Positions 2,201 through 36,003 of a stretch of 64,000 nucleotides of DNA are shown here, piece by piece. Both the position numbers and the translations under genes were made by a program. This stretch comes from Sphingorhabdus pulchriflava (GTDB lineage: Bacteria; Pseudomonadota; Alphaproteobacteria; Sphingomonadales; Sphingomonadaceae), in the NCBI RefSeq assembly GCF_003367235.1, contig NZ_QRGP01000002.1:186001-250000 (forward strand), given 5' to 3'. Below the pieces are notes generated by a model that was not told where the DNA came from, did not search any database, and saw only the letters and a program-made list of their open reading frames with translations. Position 1 is the stretch's first letter, and every line of letters begins with the position of its first letter.

Positions 2201-3421
2201 TTGAAATTTCTGACTGCCACCGACCGTTATATAGCACGGCTTGTCGCTACGCCGCTGATTGCAACGCTTGTGATCGCGGCGATGTTGTTGCTGCTCGACA
2301 AGATGCTGCGTCTATTCGATTTTGTAGCTGCCGAGGGTGGGCCGGTCAGCGTCGTCTGGCGGATGCTCGCCAATTTGATCCCCGAATATATGTCGCTCGG
2401 CATTCCGATTGGCCTGCTTTTGGGGATATTGCTTGCCTTTAGAGGTCTCGCAACCTCTTCAGAAATCGATATTTTTCGCGCAGTCGGGCAAAGTTATTGG
2501 CGGTTGCTGCGGGTCCCCTACCTCTATGCGATTGCTCTGGCGCTGGTGAATTTTGCAATCGTCGGCTGGGTGCAGCCGACATCGCGCTATTTATACGAAG
2601 AGCTTCGTTTTGACCTGCGGTCAGGTGCTTTGGGGGCTTCGATCAAGGTGGGAGAATTCAATAATCTGGGCGACAATTTGACCATGAGGATCGAAGAAAG
2701 CCGGAATCAGGGTAATGACCTGTCCGGGCTCTTTGTCTTTGCCGAGAATAAAAAGGGCCAGTCGATTGCCGTAACGGCAGCCAAGGGTCAGTTCCTACGT
2801 ACCGATGACCCAGACACAATCATCTTGCGATTGACCAATGGGACGCTGGTGCACGACGCTCCTAATTACCGAAATGCACGCGTGCTCAGCTTTTCCAGCC
2901 ATGACGTGCCGATAGATTTGCCGCAGATTGAGCAGTTTCGCGGGCGTGGCGGCAAAGACCGAGAATATACATTCAACGAACTCATCAAAGTTGGATCGGA
3001 CGCGGCGTTGCCCAAGCGAATCCGCAATCAGGCCTGGTCGAACTTCCATTTCCGGTTGGTCGAAGTTGCGATGATGCTGTTGCTGCCGTTGCTGGCAGTC
3101 GCCCTCGCGATTCCTCCCAAACGCTCAACATCGGCCTTGGGCGTGTTCCTATCGATTGTGATGGTGGTGACTTATCACAAGATCAACGAATATGCCGAAT
3201 CACTGGGAGGCATGGGCCAAGTGCCGCCAACGCTGGCCTTGTGGGTACCGTTCCTGCTGTTCGCCGGCCTGATTATCTGGATGTACCATGTAATAGCCCA
3301 TGTCCCGGGCGGGCAACCGATCGGGGCTTTGGAGGTTTTTGCCGCCAAGGCAGGCAAGGCGATCAAAAAACTCTTCAGCTTCGGCCGCAAAAATTCGCGG
3401 CTCCTGCCGCAGGAAGGATAA
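2201..3421 (+). CDS. lptF: LPS export ABC transporter permease LptF
   Basis: This 406-residue protein has the YjgP/YjgQ architecture: an N-terminal DRYIARLVATPL segment and three membrane helices (residues 15-125), a periplasmic jellyroll-like region (about 130-270), and three further helices at the C-terminus. LptF pairs with LptG as the membrane part of the LptB2FG transporter that extracts lipopolysaccharide from the inner membrane. The frame starts with TTG at 2201 behind only a weak ribosome site; this keeps the conserved N-terminal helix and is the likeliest start. lptG follows after 6 bases. Confidence 0.92.
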   Translation: MKFLTATDRYIARLVATPLIATLVIAAMLLLLDKMLRLFDFVAAEGGPVSVVWRMLANLIPEYMSLGIPIGLLLGILLAFRGLATSSEIDIFRAVGQSYWRLLRVPYLYAIALALVNFAIVGWVQPTSRYLYEELRFDLRSGALGASIKVGEFNNLGDNLTMRIEESRNQGNDLSGLFVFAENKKGQSIAVTAAKGQFLRTDDPDTIILRLTNGTLVHDAPNYRNARVLSFSSHDVPIDLPQIEQFRGRGGKDREYTFNELIKVGSDAALPKRIRNQAWSNFHFRLVEVAMMLLLPLLAVALAIPPKRSTSALGVFLSIVMVVTYHKINEYAESLGGMGQVPPTLALWVPFLLFAGLIIWMYHVIAHVPGGQPIGALEVFAAKAGKAIKKLFSFGRKNSRLLPQEG

Positions 3422-3427
3422 TCACCG

Positions 3428-4522
3428 ATGCGGCTCGATTTCTTCCCATCGCGGCAAATCGGCATTTACATGGCCAAGCTGTTTCTAGTGCGGACCCTGG
3501 CGGTTCTTCTCATGCTGGTGCTGGTGTTACAGACTCTTGATCTGTTGGGCGAAAGTGGCAAGATCCTCTCGGTCGCGGGTAACAGCGAAGCTGATTTGTG
3601 GCGCTATGTAGGCATGCGGGCTCCTCAGATTATTGCCCGATTCCTGCCCTTTTCGGTGCTGTTGGCTACGCTCATCACTTTCGCAACATTGAGCCAGAAC
3701 AGCGAAGTTGTTGCGATGAAGGCGGCCGGACTGTCGGCACACCAGATATTGGCCCCCATGATCGCAACCAGCCTTGCGGTCGCCGCCATTTCTTTTGCTT
3801 TCAACGAAACCGTTGTCGCTCCCTCGACCGCGAAGCTTAAAGTCTGGCAAGACGTCGAATATGGAGAAGTGCCGATCGATGATGGAATCCGGACCAATGT
3901 CTGGGTCCGCGAGGGTCGTGATCTTGTTCAGGCGCGGTCGGTAACAGGGACGGGAGCAGCAACGCGCTTGGCCGATGTCCGTGTGTACCAACGTGTTGAA
4001 GGCAGTTTGAAAAAAGTTATCCGTGCCGAAAGTGCAGCCTATGTCGGTGGTGCGTGGAAACTGGCCAAGGTCCGCATTTTCGACGTGACCGCGGCACGTC
4101 AGGAACGCGTGCCTGAGCTGGTTCTCGGCCGGGGTATAGACCCTGAACGGTTCAACCGGAAAAAGGTTGATGGCGACGCTCTGGGCTTTTTCGCCCTTCA
4201 GGACGCAATAGTTGATCTAAAAGGTGCAGGTCGGCGTACCGACACGCTCGAAGGCATTTTGTGGCACAAGATTTCAGGGCCTTTGTCGGCGTTGCTGATG
4301 CCTCTGCTAGGGGCTGTGGCCGCCTTCGGTCTTGCCCGGTCGGGGGCACTTTTCCTTAGGGCCGTGATCGGGATGGCGTTGGGCTTTGCCTATTTTGTGG
4401 CGGACAATTTTGCCTTGGCGATGGGCAATCTGGGCGCCTATCCGCCCTTTATCGCGGCTTGGGCGCCTTTCCTTTTGTTCCTCCTGATTGGTGAGACGGT
4501 GCTCGTCCGAACCGAGGAATAA
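3428..4522 (+). CDS. lptG: LPS export ABC transporter permease LptG
   Basis: The 364-residue product is the second YjgP/YjgQ permease, with an initial QIGIYMAKLFLVRTLAVLLMLVLVLQTLDLL helix, two more N-terminal helices, a periplasmic domain (roughly residues 130-255) and three C-terminal helices. It follows lptF after 6 bases, as in most Gram-negative genomes. Its TAA stop at 4520-4522 lies inside a 14-bp sequence that is repeated 116 bases downstream at the start of the next gene, flanking a hairpin element. This suggests that lptG and the flippase gene once overlapped as TAATG. Confidence 0.93.
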   Translation: MRLDFFPSRQIGIYMAKLFLVRTLAVLLMLVLVLQTLDLLGESGKILSVAGNSEADLWRYVGMRAPQIIARFLPFSVLLATLITFATLSQNSEVVAMKAAGLSAHQILAPMIATSLAVAAISFAFNETVVAPSTAKLKVWQDVEYGEVPIDDGIRTNVWVREGRDLVQARSVTGTGAATRLADVRVYQRVEGSLKKVIRAESAAYVGGAWKLAKVRIFDVTAARQERVPELVLGRGIDPERFNRKKVDGDALGFFALQDAIVDLKGAGRRTDTLEGILWHKISGPLSALLMPLLGAVAAFGLARSGALFLRAVIGMALGFAYFVADNFALAMGNLGAYPPFIAAWAPFLLFLLIGETVLVRTEE

Positions 4523-4647: not shown

Positions 4648-6182
4648 CGCAGGAAGAGGCGCTGGTCGAGGCACAGGCGCAGACCGTTGACCGCACCGAC
4701 GTCGCCAGAGGGGCGGGGCTGGCTGCCGTTGCGCGGCTTGGCGCGCTGATCGAGGTTGTCTCTCAACCTGCTTACACATGGATGTTCGGGCTGACCGGCT
4801 ATGGCATCTATGTGGTGCTGTGGGCGGCAGTGAACATCCTTGCAAATCTTCTCGACCTTGCTTTGGGGCAGGCATTGCAACGGATTGTCCCCGCGATCGC
4901 AAATCGTGAGGAGCAGCATGGCGCAGTGCGCTTTGCGCTGGTGGTGAGCACCGGACTTGGCATTGTGGCGGCCATTGCAATCTCGCTTTCGGCACCAATG
5001 CTCGCTGGCTGGGTCGCGAGTGCGCCCGGCGATGCGGCCAAGCTGCCACAGGCTATCGCCATTTTCGCGTGGAGCCTGCCACTCTGGATTTTCGTCGAAA
5101 CCGCAACGGCTGCTGCACGCGCCATGCGCGCCTTCGGGCCGGAAATCCGGCTGCGAATATTTTGGGAGCAGGTGGCCCGTCTGATATTTGCCGCCGGTTT
5201 CTTTTTCGCCGGGACGGGATTTGAAGGTCTGCTATTCGGCCATCTCGCCTCCTTGGCATTGACGGCATGGTTGAGCTGGAAATTGCTCGCCCGCTATTTT
5301 GACCCTGCGCTGTTGCTGAAGGCGCCCTTGCCAAGCGGCTTGCGCAAAGAGTCACTTGCGACCGGACTTGCCATGCTCCCTCCGGCACTCGCGCGCCGTG
5401 CCTATAATGACCTGCCACCGATCCTGCTCAATGCGATGATTCCGGGGTCAGGTGGGGCCACTGCGGCGGGGCTATTCGGCATCGCGCGCAAGATAGCTTC
5501 AATCCCGCTGATCGTCCGGCAATCCTTCCTTTATGTGCTGGCGCCACTGGCGTCGGCGCAGGCGGCGGTGGATCGCAAGGAGATCGCGCCGCTCTATAGT
5601 TTCTCGACGCATCTTTCGCTATTGTTGGCAGTGCCGCTCGCCGGGTTGCTGATCCTGATTGCAGCCGATCTGTTGACCGCTTTTGCGCCAGGTGCCGGGG
5701 AGGCGTTGATGGTACTGATCATCCTCCTAGCTGCGCGCGCGGCAGAGGCGGCGTTGGGTCCGGCCACACCGATCATCGAAATGATCGGGCATAGGGGATT
5801 GCCGCTGCTCAACAGCCTCGCGGGGCTGGCGATCTGGCTGGCGCTGGGCATCTGGCTGGTACCAGATATGGGCGCGACCGGGATGGCAATCGCCGTTTCC
5901 GCAGCCGTAGTGTTGACGGCGTTGCTCGCCATAATCGAACTCTATTGGGCTGATCGCGTAGCTCCTTTCGGCCACGGTTTCCTGCGCGCCGCAGTTGCAG
6001 CTGCGGGTTGTATCGCACTGCTCTGGGGCGTGGGCGAACTGCTCGCGCCGTTCGGGCAACGGGTGCGGGCGATTTCGCTGTTCCTTCTGTTCTGGCCGAG
6101 CCTCTGGCTGACATTGCGGCTAGGGTTGCTGCCCGAGGACAAGCAAGGATTGGGCAAAGCGGCGGCCAAGCTTCGGCTCTAA
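4638..6182 (+). CDS. polysaccharide flippase, Wzx-like MOP superfamily
   Basis: The 514-residue protein has about 12-14 hydrophobic helices and the layout of oligosaccharide/lipopolysaccharide flippases (polysaccharide_synt or MATE-like): an opening ARGAGLAAVARLGALIEVVSQPAYTWMFG segment, a central loop near VDRKEIAPLYSFSTHLSLL, and long Leu/Ala-rich helices in the C-terminal half. Such proteins move undecaprenyl-linked glycans across the inner membrane. A GTG at 4614 would extend the protein by eight residues but lies inside the hairpin arm, so ATG 4638 is preferred; it copies the ancestral start context. Proximity to lptFG fits an envelope role. Confidence 0.8.
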   Translation: MSGPQEEALVEAQAQTVDRTDVARGAGLAAVARLGALIEVVSQPAYTWMFGLTGYGIYVVLWAAVNILANLLDLALGQALQRIVPAIANREEQHGAVRFALVVSTGLGIVAAIAISLSAPMLAGWVASAPGDAAKLPQAIAIFAWSLPLWIFVETATAAARAMRAFGPEIRLRIFWEQVARLIFAAGFFFAGTGFEGLLFGHLASLALTAWLSWKLLARYFDPALLLKAPLPSGLRKESLATGLAMLPPALARRAYNDLPPILLNAMIPGSGGATAAGLFGIARKIASIPLIVRQSFLYVLAPLASAQAAVDRKEIAPLYSFSTHLSLLLAVPLAGLLILIAADLLTAFAPGAGEALMVLIILLAARAAEAALGPATPIIEMIGHRGLPLLNSLAGLAIWLALGIWLVPDMGATGMAIAVSAAVVLTALLAIIELYWADRVAPFGHGFLRAAVAAAGCIALLWGVGELLAPFGQRVRAISLFLLFWPSLWLTLRLGLLPEDKQGLGKAAAKLRL

Positions 6183-6248
6183 CCGGCTTGCCCTGACAGG
6201 GGTGGCGGCATAAAGCGCAGCAATCATTGTTGCAAAGGGACGGGACAG

Positions 6249-7412
6249 ATGCAGGCAGGCGAAGTGCGCGTTACGCCGGTAAGCGGAAAGAAAGCGCTGG
6301 CGGAGTTTGTCGATCTGCCCTTCCGGCTTTACGCCCATGATCCCAACTGGGTTCCGCCGTTGAAGGACGAGGTTCACGGCCTTCTCACACCGTCCAAAAA
6401 CCCATGGTTTGAACATGCCGAGGCACAGCTTTTCCTTGCGCGCCGCGCCGGCCAGGTTGTTGGACGGATTTCCGCGCATATCGACCATCTCGCATTCAAG
6501 CAGCCCATTGAGCAGGGCATGGGCCCCGGCACCGGCTTCTGGGGATTTTACGAGGCGGAAAGTGCCGAAATCGGTAACGCCTTGCTGGTCGAAGCGGAGA
6601 AATGGCTGCGGGCAAAAGGCATGACCAAGATGATCGGTCCGGTCAGCTTTGCCATGTGGGATGAGCCCGGGCTGTTGATCGAAGGTCATGACCACCCGCC
6701 AACCGTGATGATGGGCTTTAACAGCATGGCCTATCAGGAATGGATCGAGGCGGCGGGGCATCAGAAGGTCGAAGATCTTTTCACCTTTGCGCTGGCGATT
6801 GACCAGGGCCTGCCCGAACTGACCAACCGCATTGTCGCGATGGGCGAAAAAAGCGGGAAGATCCAAATCCGCCGCGTGAACAAGAGCAAGTTCGACGAAG
6901 AGGCGGCGCTGATCCTGTCCATTCTAAATGACGCCTGGAGCGACAATTGGGGGTTCGTCCCGTTCACGCCGGCAGAGGTCGCCTATGCGGGGAAGAAGCT
7001 GAAGCCGATCGTCTTTGAAGACCTGATCCGCATCGCCGAAATCGATGGCGAGCCGGTGGCCTTCATGATGACCATTCCCGATCTGAACGAGCAGCTGGTT
7101 AAATATGGTGGATCGCTTTGGCCGTTTAACTGGGCAAAGCTGCTCTGGTGGCTCAATGTCGGCAAGCCTCAGGTGACGACGATGCGTGTTCCGCTCATGG
7201 GCGTGGTCAAAAAACTTCAGGGTACGCGCACCGCGAGCCAGCTCGCTTTCATGCTCATCGAATATATCCGGCGCGACGCCGTAACCAAATTCGGCGCGAC
7301 GCGCGGCGATTTTGGTTGGGTGCTTTCATCAAACGGTCCGATGGTTTCGGTCGGCGAAGCCGTGGGCGGTAAAGTCAACAAAGTGTACCGGATTTACGAA
7401 AAGGCGCTCTGA
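6249..7412 (+). CDS. GNAT-fold N-acyltransferase, YghO-like
   Basis: This 387-residue protein opens with FVDLPFRLYAHDPNWVPPLKDEV and continues NPWFEHAEAQLFLARRAGQVVGRISAHID, the signature of a long GNAT-related family typified by E. coli YghO. The family has two acetyltransferase-like halves; substrates are mostly unassigned, although as far as I recall the Caulobacter ceramide synthase belongs to this kind of protein. In a sphingolipid-making sphingomonad that makes an N-acyltransferase role on a sphingoid base worth testing. The 3' end overlaps the convergent DUF815 gene by 19 bases. The flippase gene ends 66 bases upstream. Confidence 0.7.
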   Translation: MQAGEVRVTPVSGKKALAEFVDLPFRLYAHDPNWVPPLKDEVHGLLTPSKNPWFEHAEAQLFLARRAGQVVGRISAHIDHLAFKQPIEQGMGPGTGFWGFYEAESAEIGNALLVEAEKWLRAKGMTKMIGPVSFAMWDEPGLLIEGHDHPPTVMMGFNSMAYQEWIEAAGHQKVEDLFTFALAIDQGLPELTNRIVAMGEKSGKIQIRRVNKSKFDEEAALILSILNDAWSDNWGFVPFTPAEVAYAGKKLKPIVFEDLIRIAEIDGEPVAFMMTIPDLNEQLVKYGGSLWPFNWAKLLWWLNVGKPQVTTMRVPLMGVVKKLQGTRTASQLAFMLIEYIRRDAVTKFGATRGDFGWVLSSNGPMVSVGEAVGGKVNKVYRIYEKAL

Positions 7413-32470: not shown

Positions 32471-32513
32471 AAAAAAGCTATAGGCTCCGGGAAGGAGCGA
32501 CCTTCCCGGAGCC
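32471..32513 (-). terminator. intrinsic terminator/attenuator between repeat-protein and barrel genes
   Basis: A perfect 13-bp inverted repeat (32483-32495 and 32501-32513, 5-base loop) is followed on the minus strand by TATAGCTTTTTTG. It starts 14 bases after the repeat-protein stop and would lower transcription of the barrel gene relative to the repeat protein. Confidence 0.8.
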
Positions 32514-32526
32514 GCCAGCGGTCCGG

Positions 32527-32970
32527 TTATGCCGGATCGTCGGCACCATGGCCGCCGCGGTCATCGCCCGGGGCGTCGTCACCACCGCGTCCACGACCTC
32601 GTCCACGTCCCTGGCCGCTGTCATCAGCTGTGCGCACACGATCGCCGCCATTGTCGTCATTTGCATCATGATCGGCCGGATCGTCATTGCCACGTCCGCC
32701 ACGGTCGTCATTCGCATCGTGATCGGCTGGATCATCGGCGCCGCGACCGCGCTCGCGCAGGCCACCCTTGTCGTCACTGATGTCATGATCGGCAGGATCG
32801 TCGGCTCCACGGCCTTGGCGAACATCACCCGGTGCATCGTCGCAACCGCGGCACTGACGGACATGGCCTGCCGGATCGTCGGCACCGCGACGCGCCATCG
32901 CGCTTCCGGCACTCAGGGTTGCTGCACAAATGGCGACGGTTGCGACGCCCAGTTTCCAGATAGTAGTCAT
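32527..32970 (-). CDS. secreted Asp/Gly/Arg-rich tandem repeat protein
   Basis: The 147-residue product has a clear signal peptide (residues 1-26, ending SAMA) and a mature part built almost entirely from seven degenerate units of the type RGADDPADHDANDDRGG, the last ending at the stop codon. A single C-x2-C pair (Cys40, Cys43) sits in the second unit. There is no aromatic core, so the chain is probably disordered; the regular Asp/Asn spacing could bind calcium. A GGGAGAAA ribosome site precedes the ATG. Upstream (33015-33041) is a promoter-like signature shared with the divergent subtilase. I do not recognise the family. Confidence 0.65.
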   Translation of the reverse strand: MTTIWKLGVATVAICAATLSAGSAMARRGADDPAGHVRQCRGCDDAPGDVRQGRGADDPADHDISDDKGGLRERGRGADDPADHDANDDRGGRGNDDPADHDANDDNGGDRVRTADDSGQGRGRGRGRGGDDAPGDDRGGHGADDPA

Positions 32971-33014
32971 TATGTTTCTCCCGAATGGACCCGGCAGGGG
33001 GTGCCGGTCTTTTC

Positions 33015-33041
33015 ACAACGGGAAAGAGAAGCAATTATTCC
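33015..33041 (-). promoter_or_regulatory. ECF-type promoter signature, copy 1 (repeat protein)
   Basis: On the minus strand GGAATAATTG (33041-33032), 10 bases, then CCGTTGT (33021-33015). The same 17 fixed positions with the same spacing occur upstream of the subtilase. GGAAT-N16-CGTT is close to the alphaproteobacterial EcfG consensus GGAAC-N16/17-CGTT. It lies about 45 bases before the repeat-protein ATG. Confidence 0.65.
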
Positions 33042-33062
33042 ATCTGCGAACGGAAAAACTGC

Positions 33063-33773
33063 TTATTGGATCCAACCTAATGAAATAGCTATCTTTTCTT
33101 TGTCGCCATTTAACGGATCGGATGCCTTCAGACGTTCCATTGCGGTATCCAGCGCTGCCGGTTCGCTTCCAGCGGCCGTACCGATTTCACTGCCATTTCC
33201 GACAACAGCACCATATTTGGCCTGAGCCTCGATCGTCCATTTGCCACCCGAGCGGCAAGCAATTCCACCGCCAGTGTTCTCACCGGAAAATTCGCGGCAA
33301 AAGCGGCCATCGCCTGCGCGGAAGGTGAGGACGGGGCCGACGGTGTCACCACTCGCCAATTCTCTTGTCTGCCCTGAAGGCAGCTTCTCCATCGCGATCT
33401 GGAATTGCTGGTCATCAGCAAATCCTCCGGCTTCGGGCTGAAACAGCACCATCGCTATTGCCAGCGACGCCGCAAGCGCTCCACCCACAAGACCGATGCG
33501 GCCCCACGACCAACGATTGTCATTCGCGGCGACGGGAAGTGCTTTTGCTTCACCTTCAACGGTCCCGAGCCCCAGGCGTTCGAGCAAGGCAGCGTCTATC
33601 CCGTCTTCTGAAAGCGGAAATGCAGCGCGCACCATTGCGTCACTGGCCTGCCACTGGTGCACCTCGGCGGCGAGCGCAGCATCATCCCGCATCTCCGCTT
33701 CAAAACGCGCGCGCGCTTCGCCGGTCAGGTTCCCGTCCAGATAAGCGGCGATTGTTTCTGCCCGGTCAGCCAT
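33063..33773 (-). CDS. transmembrane anti-sigma factor
   Basis: From ATG 33773 the protein has 236 residues. The cytoplasmic N-terminus has ETIAAYLDGNLTGEARARFEAEMRDDAALAAEV, the typical start of zinc-less anti-sigma domains. One membrane helix spans residues 92-111, and a periplasmic domain carries a probable disulfide pair (Cys159, Cys173) in a FCREF...GIACR context. The start lies inside the sigma gene (8-base overlap, ATGGCTGA), the usual coupling for sigma/anti-sigma pairs. The periplasmic domain may sense the envelope signal. Confidence 0.85.
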   Translation of the reverse strand: MADRAETIAAYLDGNLTGEARARFEAEMRDDAALAAEVHQWQASDAMVRAAFPLSEDGIDAALLERLGLGTVEGEAKALPVAANDNRWSWGRIGLVGGALAASLAIAMVLFQPEAGGFADDQQFQIAMEKLPSGQTRELASGDTVGPVLTFRAGDGRFCREFSGENTGGGIACRSGGKWTIEAQAKYGAVVGNGSEIGTAAGSEPAALDTAMERLKASDPLNGDKEKIAISLGWIQ

Positions 33774-34290
33774 TGTCCTGTCTTTCGCCATATAGTGCAC
33801 GGTCGATCGACTGGCGCGCCCGCGCTATGCGGCTCATCACCGTTCCGATCGGGATATCGAGGATTTCCGCCGCTTCCTTGTAAGTACGTCCGTCGAGCAC
33901 AACCAGCGCCATCAACGCTCGTTGATCATCCGGCAGCGTCGCCATTGCCATCTTTGCCCGTTCAAGATCTGAACGCCCCTCGACGATGGCTCGCCCATCG
34001 TCTCCGGCGATAGAAACCGCTTCGTCGATGTCGATCGAAGTGCCGCGACGGGCCGAAGCCCTCGCTTCATCGATATGGATGTTTTGCGCGATCCGGAACA
34101 TCCAGCTTTCCAGGCTCGTGCCCGGTTGCCACTGGTCGATTCGCGTCAGCGCCCTTTCGACTGTTGCTTGCATCAAATCATCGCCCCTGTCTTCGCTCCG
34201 CGACAGCACCATACAGAAACGGCGCAGGCGCGGCAGAAATGCCACGATGCGTGCCTTGACGCTTTCCATCTCTGCGTTGCCGGCGTGCAT
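33766..34290 (-). CDS. ECF-family RNA polymerase sigma factor
   Basis: This 174-residue protein has only sigma regions 2 and 4. Region 2 reads LPRLRRFCMVLSRSEDRGDDLMQATVERALTRIDQWQPGTSLESWMFRIAQNIHIDEAR; region 4 reads LPDDQRALMALVVLDGRTYKEAAEILDIPIGTVMSRIARARQSI. It is co-encoded with a membrane anti-sigma factor and diverges from a subtilase. Upstream on its own strand is an ECF-like site (GAACC-N15-CGTCT), consistent with autoregulation. The exact ECF group was not assigned. Confidence 0.93.
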   Translation of the reverse strand: MHAGNAEMESVKARIVAFLPRLRRFCMVLSRSEDRGDDLMQATVERALTRIDQWQPGTSLESWMFRIAQNIHIDEARASARRGTSIDIDEAVSIAGDDGRAIVEGRSDLERAKMAMATLPDDQRALMALVVLDGRTYKEAAEILDIPIGTVMSRIARARQSIDRALYGERQDNG

Positions 34291-34364
34291 CCTGTTCGAA
34301 GCCCTAACGTATCGAGGCGGATTTTATTCCGTAATCGAAACCCCAAAAATCTATCTGCATGGAT

Positions 34365-34389
34365 AGACGTGATTTTATTTCTCCGGTTC
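34365..34389 (-). promoter_or_regulatory. putative autoregulated ECF promoter of the sigma operon
   Basis: Minus-strand GAACC at 34389-34385, a 15-base spacer, then CGTCT at 34369-34365. AAC in the -35 and CGT in the -10 are the hallmark of ECF promoters. It lies about 75 bases before the sigma ATG and directly back to back with the subtilase promoter. Confidence 0.55.
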
Positions 34390-34392
34390 AGT

Positions 34393-34419
34393 GGAATAAT
34401 TGTCAAGGCTGACCGTTGT
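34393..34419 (+). promoter_or_regulatory. ECF-type promoter signature, copy 2 (subtilase)
   Basis: GGAATAATTG at 34393-34402, 10 bases, then CCGTTGT at 34413-34419. It is identical at all 17 fixed positions and in spacing to the copy upstream of the repeat-protein gene. The subtilase ATG is 55 bases downstream. Confidence 0.65.
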
Positions 34420-34473
34420 CACTGCATGATACAGCATATTGCAAAATGGGGCCGAAAGCGCGAGACTTCGCCT

Positions 34474-36003
34474 ATGGCTCGAAATAAAACCGGTACCACC
34501 GTTTCGAAAGCGGGATTGACCGCGATCATAACAGTGGCGCTGACATCGGGTTCCGCCCAGTTGCACGCCGGCGACCGCGAGGACCGTGCAGACAAGGCGA
34601 TGGAAGCCTCGATCCGGGCTGCGGAACGCGCAACTAGGGACAGCGCGCGCGCCAGCGAAGAAGCCGCGCGCGCCGCTGAACGCACGCGGATAGACGAAAT
34701 CAAAACCACCGAAGATGGTCAACGCGCCGAAGTCCGCGCTGCCGAAGACTTGGCCAAGGCTCAGGCCGATGCTCAAGAGCAGGCGATCAAAGATGCCGCC
34801 GACGCAGAGGAACAGGCCGCCAAAGACGCGGCGGACGCAGCCGACGATGCCGCAAAGGCTGCCGAAGATGCTGCCAAAGACGCCGCCGATGCAGCCGAGG
34901 ATGCGGCTAAGGCTGCAGAAGATGCAATGGAGGACAGCCATGGCTCCTCCGAAACGATGCGCGATCTTGCAAGCTCTGAAAGCCCCGATTTTGACGGAAA
35001 GGGGTTCCCGGTCCGTAATGGAGAAATCGTCGGCATCGATGTCGACGAAAGATCGGTCGGGCTAGCTGTCGGTGCGGGATTTACGGTTATCGAGCGGACA
35101 AAACTTCCCGGTCTGGGCAGTGAAGTAATCCGCTTTGCTGCACCAAAGGGCATGGATTCCAGTACAGCGCTGGAATTGATGCGCAGCACCGATGCGCAAG
35201 GCAGCTATGATATGACACATTATTATGGCCTGCTATTCTCCCCGCAAGGCGGACCGTCGGCGAAAAGTGGCTCAGCGATAAAGGCAAAGGCCGGAACTTT
35301 GAAAATCGGCATGATCGATACAGGCGTTGCCGGGCACAAAGCTTTGTCCAAATTATCGCTGATGACACGCGACTTTAGCGGCAATAACAAAGCTGTGCCG
35401 ACAGAGCATGGCACGGCTATTGCCTCTCTGCTTGCCAGCGAAGGCGCGGCGACAATTTATGCCGCGAATATTTTCCAGAGTGGTATCGGCAAACCCTATA
35501 CATCAGCCGACGCCATTGTGCGCGCACTTGACTGGATGGTTCAACAGCAAGTGCCGGTGATAAACATCAGCCTTGCCGGCCCGCGAAACAAAATATTGGA
35601 CGCGCTGGTTCGCAAGGCAAGCACTATGGGCCATGTAATTGTGGCGGCGGCAGGAAATGGCGGCCCGACCGCACCGCCAGCCTATCCGGCAGCATTGCCC
35701 GATGTCGTAGCGGTGACCGCTGTGGACAAAAACCTGCGCGTTTACCGCTACGCCAATCAGGGCAAATATGTTCGCGTTGCGGCGTTGGGCGTCGACATCG
35801 CAGCTGCGACTCCAGGTGGTAAAACCGGCCGGCAAAGTGGCACATCTTTTGCCACCCCGCACGTCGCTGCGTGGATGGCCCGCTGTACCGGCAGCAAGAA
35901 CCCGACAACGCGTCTCAAATGCATAAAGCGGCTCGAAAGCGAAGCCCGAGATTTGGGCGAACCCGGCCGCGATGCAGTATATGGCTACGGCTTTATTTCT
36001 TGA
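34474..36003 (+). CDS. exported subtilisin-like S8 serine protease with Ala/Asp-rich helical N-terminus
   Basis: From ATG 34474 the protein has 509 residues. This start gives a signal peptide ending near QLHA (residue 32), whereas the longer open frame from 34075 runs through the sigma gene. Residues 33-165 are a very regular Ala/Asp/Glu/Lys helix built of repeats such as DAAKAAEDAAKDAADAAEDA. A prodomain-like segment follows (about 180-260), then the S8 catalytic domain with Asp282 (IDTG), His312 (EHGTAIA) and Ser458 (SGTSFATPH). It diverges from the ECF sigma gene and shares a promoter signature with the secreted repeat protein. The substrate is unknown; the repeat protein or the anti-sigma factor are candidates by context only. 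Confidence 0.85.
   Translation: MARNKTGTTVSKAGLTAIITVALTSGSAQLHAGDREDRADKAMEASIRAAERATRDSARASEEAARAAERTRIDEIKTTEDGQRAEVRAAEDLAKAQADAQEQAIKDAADAEEQAAKDAADAADDAAKAAEDAAKDAADAAEDAAKAAEDAMEDSHGSSETMRDLASSESPDFDGKGFPVRNGEIVGIDVDERSVGLAVGAGFTVIERTKLPGLGSEVIRFAAPKGMDSSTALELMRSTDAQGSYDMTHYYGLLFSPQGGPSAKSGSAIKAKAGTLKIGMIDTGVAGHKALSKLSLMTRDFSGNNKAVPTEHGTAIASLLASEGAATIYAANIFQSGIGKPYTSADAIVRALDWMVQQQVPVINISLAGPRNKILDALVRKASTMGHVIVAAAGNGGPTAPPAYPAALPDVVAVTAVDKNLRVYRYANQGKYVRVAALGVDIAAATPGGKTGRQSGTSFATPHVAAWMARCTGSKNPTTRLKCIKRLESEARDLGEPGRDAVYGYGFIS

Follow-up and report, generated by a model that had tools for sequence, protein, structure and literature searches.

Extracytoplasmic function (ECF) sigma factors of group ECF26 include RpoE6 of Sinorhizobium meliloti, whose gene lies divergently from a serine protease gene in an arrangement that is widely conserved there (PMC6180224, cited throughout for the part of its text that was consulted). 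In this relative, overexpression of RpoE6 was shown to raise the protease gene SMa0142, the anti-sigma gene ecfR6, SMa0146 and SMa0148, and the published ECF26 consensus is -35 GGAATA and -10 GT (PMC6180224). RpoE1 and RpoE4 of the same species are likewise ECF26 factors with COG5662-type anti-sigma factors; they differ in responding to sulfite and in having sulfite oxidation genes as targets, and the words 'peptidase' and 'subtilisin' are absent from the part of that text consulted (PMC3511301). A further comparison is provided by the Fap system of Pseudomonas, where the exported protease FapD is essential for Fap secretion (PMC5557850, consulted in part). Here we describe a locus in a 64-kb window of Sphingorhabdus pulchriflava (the whole stretch of DNA analyzed, positions 186,001 to 250,000 of NZ_QRGP01000002.1, which is contig 2 of a 3.2-Mb genome), in which genes for an ECF sigma factor, a membrane anti-sigma factor, an exported Asp-rich repeat protein and an outer-membrane beta-barrel are accompanied by a divergent exported subtilase. 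A first-pass annotation had read these five genes as one compact locus with no described counterpart; its observations are confirmed in part and extended below.

The window locus has the traits of the RpoE6 type, namely a sigma factor with regions 2 and 4, a membrane anti-sigma gene downstream of it and a divergent serine protease gene. Profiles built from Sphingomonadales proteins match pSymA of S. meliloti (sigma 1.6e-64, anti-sigma 1.7e-40, subtilase 2.2e-101), and next to these matches stand the promoter strings published for SMa0142, ecfR6 and SMa0148; hence the core of the window locus is of the known RpoE6-EcfR6-SMa0142 type. On pSymA, too, the sigma gene is followed by the anti-sigma gene, the subtilase, whose RpoE6-dependent induction is published (PMC6180224), is divergent, and behind the anti-sigma gene stands a gene for a low-complexity protein, preceded by a GGAATA-type site of its own. 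The product of this gene, directly after ecfR6, has SSSN repeats and, judged by eye, a signal peptide, and by its position it is probably SMa0146, the published RpoE6 target. S. meliloti differs from the window in having SSSN rather than Asp-rich repeats in the partner, in giving no barrel match in the 20 kb examined, and in a published rpoE6 promoter that is RpoD/RpoH-like and not ECF-like (PMC6180224). The sigma-protease core is therefore already described and widespread, contrary to the first-pass opinion, and the less expected part is the recurring partner and the FapF-like barrel. SMa0148 is the most induced RpoE6 target in the text consulted (PMC6180224), its published promoter precedes an open reading frame (ORF), and the matching position in Agrobacterium is occupied by a DUF6065 gene that has a sigma-type site.

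The window holds three matches to GGAATAA-N13/15-CGTT, all with N14 spacing, where 0.08 are expected, and 0 of 100 shuffles reach three; genome-wide there are five sites, and N14 spacing occurs only in the three locus copies. The matches agree with the ECF26 RpoE6-type consensus (-35 GGAATA, -10 GT) and precede both the subtilase and the repeat gene, as the first-pass annotation had noticed, with a third copy ahead of the sigma gene, such that one ECF promoter type unites the subtilase, the repeat protein and the sigma operon and bears out this part of the earlier interpretation. Among 61 divergent sigma-subtilase regions (Rhodobacteraceae loci included, and a few of them duplicates from the same genome), GGAAT-N16-CGTT points toward the subtilase in 16 and toward sigma in 10, and GGAAT-N17-CGTT toward the subtilase in 7 and toward sigma in 17, with crude shuffles giving 0.2 and 0; the Rhodobacteraceae loci carry the same promoter pair. 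In 12 other genomes GGAATAA-N14/15-CGTT has 42 sites, distributed over 10 of the 12, of which 21 by hand count are at the locus and 21 are elsewhere, compared with 16 for the reversed control. A wider regulon was also sought in the window's own genome with the loosened GGAAT-N14/16-CGTT, which gave 47 sites versus 44 for the reversed control, so that it is not readable from this pattern and was rejected. Regulation of the locus by its ECF sigma factor is well supported.

Conservation of the core was surveyed in 296 genomes of Sphingomonadales, the order to which the window belongs, with a neighborhood limit of 6 kb and cut-offs of E ≤1e-20 for subtilase and E ≤1e-24 for sigma relatives. A divergent sigma relative is present at 105 of 117 subtilase places, with two on the same strand and ten without any, and a subtilase is present at 107 of 118 sigma places. 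The conserved unit is the sigma factor, the anti-sigma factor and the subtilase. Weaker S8 relatives (L002 and L018-L036, one of them not confirmed as S8) have a sigma match at 1 of 20 loci, L021. Beyond this order sigma and subtilase are paired less regularly: a sigma match is present at 12 of 27 class-wide loci, whose flanks are short, and at 9 of 12 named loci, where two of the three misses are close to a contig end. In Robiginitomaculum (L131:4582-6993) the subtilase includes a long low-complexity region, and its gene lies ahead of the sigma and anti-sigma genes on the same strand.

Pfam domains above cut-off are sigma regions 2 and 4 and Peptidase_S8; the anti-sigma factor, with one membrane segment by eye, has family matches below cut-off only, and a Pfam search with the barrel and the repeat protein gave no match. 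In the anti-sigma factor C163, R164, C177 and W183 (numbered on a 240-residue reading, four longer than the 236-residue protein) are kept in 22 of 22 loci, and because the invariant Cys pair follows the membrane segment, the sequence suggests a disulfide-gated sensor. The subtilase residues D282, H312 and S458 and the oxyanion N395 are invariant in 24 of 24 sequences. Its structure model has the pro-subtilisin fold, with a prodomain and an S8 domain as in bacterial pro-subtilisins (pro-subtilisin E, pro-Tk-subtilisin), from which these subtilases differ in the long, variable and often low-complexity extension N-terminal to the prodomain. The Ala/Asp helix that had been put at about 130 residues is predicted as a single helix, although one of 112 residues, and signal peptides on all non-regulatory products are recovered as claimed, by a home-made rule for the repeat protein and the barrel and by eye for the subtilase, whose ORF has a second in-frame ATG at 34426. 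As far as sequence can establish them, the genes, the promoters, their conservation and the intact catalytic residues stand, and the regulon is real and belongs to the known ECF26 type.

Beside this core an exported low-complexity protein recurs: 25 of 38 wide loci have such an ORF no farther than 3 kb away, versus 4 of 38 for the farther flanks. The count uses the home-made signal-peptide rule, and some of its near matches are the barrel or ORFs read out of frame. In Sphingorhabdus and near relatives the partner is Asp-rich, and in one group of the window's family it is Gly/Ser/Asn-rich and lies behind the subtilase. Other genomes of the order have helix repeats of Ala/Glu/Arg/Asp, Rhodobacteraceae have GSGG/PSG or SRP repeats preceded by what by eye is a Tat-like leader, and Sinorhizobium and Agrobacterium have SSSN repeats. 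A sigma-type site lies within 260 bp of 17 of 19 partner genes (20 were entered and the script found 19; the misses are L044 and L112), where about 0.02 per gene is expected from the density over all loci, and nine Gly/Ser/Asn-type loci were excluded from this count because their clade uses another promoter form. The Asp-rich gene has such a site in 7 of 7 loci, GGAATAA in six and GGAATAG in L108. Searching for homologues of the repeat protein yielded 276 matches, which are mostly compositional and were rejected as evidence of kinship. No description of the recurring exported partner was found in the literature searched, which did not include the ECF classification paper. In Rhodobacteraceae an ORF behind the Tat-like repeat gene (L135:7479-8726, with similar ORFs in L136, L138, L139 and L140) combines a C-terminal PqqD domain (L135) with what looks by eye like an HPr kinase-type P-loop stretch, and possibly modifies the Ser-rich repeat protein.

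In several clades the partner and the subtilase extension have units in common (PPAG in L112, SRP in L135, GSGG/ASG in L136 and L138-L140, Ala/Glu helices in L119 and L122). Own extension-partner pairs, which were picked by eye and to that extent are biased, are closer than permuted ones in composition (p 0.00008) and in 4-mers (p 0.00024) over 27 pairs from 10 clades; an earlier run on 22 pairs from 6 clades, without L119, L122, L043 (two) and L044, which failed the motif or length rule, gave p 0.0095 and 0.0045. Loci from one genus are not independent, and some genomes are represented twice (by L038 and L128, and by L117 and L130). By composition none of the six window-clade pairs stands out, nor do L134, L136 and L138, and 5 of 9 Gly/Ser/Asn-type pairs are without any common 4-mer.

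A different promoter form is seen in another group of the window's family, where the gap between the sigma and subtilase genes contains a single palindrome, GGATGAAACG-N12-CGTTTCATCC, each arm of which can be read as a -35 on one strand and as a -10 on the other. With up to two mismatches it is found in 19 of 147 genomes, one copy each, and all 19 copies are 8-59 bp from a sigma coding match; the reversed palindrome matches in 2 of the 147. It is apparently a symmetric two-way ECF promoter; alternatively it could be the operator of a repressor. The same literature contained no description of a palindromic ECF promoter.

The barrel model (predicted local distance difference test score, pLDDT, 75.6; predicted template modeling score, pTM, 0.69; 13 strand segments) has FapF (5o67) as its top match in a fold search, with E 2.2e-12 and a query template modeling score of 0.52-0.61 across FapF chains, and in a sequence profile search FapF is the only match below 1e-3 (2.8e-6), its single stretches being weak. 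This is compatible with the earlier suggestion that the barrel serves as an exit. Between the repeat and barrel genes is a hairpin with the longest stem in a terminator scan (which overall did not exceed shuffles, giving 7 versus a mean of 5.7). A stable hairpin follows the repeat gene in 7 of 7 window-type loci, a count without a control, hairpins after partner genes being common generally, also without a control set; four aligned window-type hairpins have paired changes in three relatives. Expression of the barrel may thus come from partial read-through of the stable hairpin between the two genes. At 10 of 25 subtilase-free loci a barrel relative lies directly behind an exported low-complexity ORF, a count made by eye on the two candidates of lowest complexity at each locus. 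Such two-gene units, separate from the subtilase locus and in some cases with KPE-repeat tails, are seen in L082-L086, L088, L089, L100, L103 and L105, and a second barrel relative of 51% identity lies off-locus in a same-genus genome (G001:C1:367542-368360).

Table 1. Positions of the locus features in the window, with two groups of features from other loci.
Feature	Position	Strand	Remarks
Outer-membrane beta-barrel, 301 amino acids	31508..32413	-	Disordered low-complexity loop 94-136; nearest solved fold FapF
Hairpin, 13 bp, between repeat gene and barrel gene	32483..32513	-	Terminator or attenuator
Exported Asp-rich repeat protein, 147 amino acids	32527..32970	-	GADDPADHD-type units
Repeat-gene ECF promoter	33017..33041	-	GGAATAA-N14-CGTT
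Membrane anti-sigma factor, 236 amino acids	33063..33773	-	Start ATG 33773; Cys pair beyond membrane segment
ECF sigma factor, 174 amino acids	33766..34290	-	Regions 2 and 4; 3' end overlaps anti-sigma start
Sigma/anti-sigma operon ECF promoter (autoregulation)	34306..34330	-	GGAATAA-N14-CGTT
Subtilase ECF promoter	34393..34417	+	GGAATAA-N14-CGTT
Exported subtilase, 509 amino acids	34474..36003	+	Signal peptide, helix 41-152, prodomain about 179-252, S8 domain
Near-perfect palindrome between sigma and subtilase	L170-L179, L040, L114, L124, L144, L145		
ORFs at SMa0148-type position	L180:10961-11674, L182:3123-3839		

The reading that we favor, tentatively and with somewhat less than an even chance of being right, is an autoregulated module of the RpoE6/EcfR6 ECF26 type with a locus-centered regulon that serves the export, maturation and clearance of a low-complexity envelope protein, and of the functions considered, export and maturation of such a protein seems the most likely. 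Free sigma would transcribe its own operon, the divergent subtilase and the exported low-complexity protein from near-identical promoters; the latter would pass Sec (with a Tat-like leader in some relatives), and the self-maturing subtilase would shed its prodomain and then trim or remove its partner. In the window clade the partner may cross the outer membrane through the FapF-like barrel, the whole working like Pseudomonas Fap with the subtilase replacing FapD, where the signal, the substrate and the role of the barrel are what we infer. The window locus and Fap have in common an exported repeat protein and an exported protease, and the nearest solved fold of the window barrel is FapF. They differ in that FapD is a C39 protease whereas the window protease is an S8 subtilase, in that FapC has Asn/Gln-rich repeats whereas the window protein has Asp-rich units and none of the FapC type, and in that the window locus, unlike Fap, is under ECF control.

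Several observations weigh against this reading. No sigma-type promoter site was found upstream of the barrel gene, which was therefore rejected as a promoter-defined member of the regulon; the hairpin separates it from the repeat gene; and a barrel is near a subtilase at just 10 of 51 barrel places (71 rows, less 20 that were second pieces of the same genes). The five-gene set was accordingly rejected as a conserved unit: all five genes are present, although the barrel falls outside the 32471-36003 to which the first-pass annotation had confined the locus, and elsewhere sigma/anti-sigma pairs do occur without the barrel and the Asp-rich protein, while as a rule the subtilase is with them. The periplasmic coiled coil of FapF is absent from the barrel model, the second fold match, the COG4313 channel 4rl8 (1.3e-9), has a similar fold, and by eye the Asp-rich repeats do not look amyloidogenic. 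The window genome has two C39 (FapD-type) matches, both on another contig; one exported C39 gene, at 3966-4736 of L183 (G000:C1:1525500-1534500) and far from the locus, has exported Asn/Ser-rich ORFs as neighbors (2799-3434 and others) and a porin-like ORF (5510-6823) with an N-terminal heptad-like stretch by eye. Judged by its gene content, L183 may be a Fap-like locus in its own right, and it may be here that a Fap-like task is carried out. In the window clade the extension is no more like its own partner (0.78) than like those of other clades (0.78), and G174 and G106 carry the system without an exact GGAATAA-N14/15-CGTT. Overexpression of RpoE6 raised 40 S. meliloti genes, which means that the regulon need not be local, and a strain devoid of all 11 ECF sigma factors had no major defect (PMC6180224).

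A barrel that lacks a sigma-type site and is mostly unlinked is what would be expected if the locus were an ordinary envelope-stress regulon. The subtilase would then act in periplasmic quality control, the repeat proteins would form a hydrophilic shield or bind ions, and the barrel would be a neighbor without any relation to them; the complete change of partners between clades also fits, as bulk hydrophilicity alone would then count. We consider this rather unlikely, since a generic protease needs none of the repeat units that partner and extension share in several clades, and the palindromic promoter, at one copy per genome, is unlike a broad stress response. The near-obligate pairing of subtilase and sigma could instead place the protease within the signaling chain, where it would cut the anti-sigma ectodomain in a positive feedback with the invariant Cys pair marking a possible gated substrate; however, the subtilase is itself a sigma target and the Cys pair may equally be a direct redox sensor, and this we regard as quite improbable. 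Still less probable is that only sigma, anti-sigma and subtilase belong together, with the repeat protein and the barrel as passengers. Among the loci examined (no all-genome search was made), only close relatives do have the Asp-rich protein next to the module, but the sigma-type sites at all seven Asp-rich genes counted and at nearly all partner genes, other clades included, speak against it.

The export-and-maturation reading can be widened into a proposal, which we think unlikely as a whole, that RpoE6-type sigma factors throughout the Alphaproteobacteria control a device dedicated to envelope proteins of low complexity, in which the cargo repeats are clade-specific, are mirrored in the protease extension in several clades and are served by a FapF-like pore in some, making it a subtilase-based counterpart of functional-amyloid secretion, with one clade in which a single palindromic promoter would fire either the sigma operon or the protease. 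That palindromic promoter would make a simple system in which to test whether divergent transcription by an ECF sigma factor is mutually exclusive. If the cargo and the extension of its protease truly co-evolve, the loci form a natural series of matched protease-repeat pairs, and the recurring exported low-complexity protein gives ECF26-type regulons a concrete, testable cargo.

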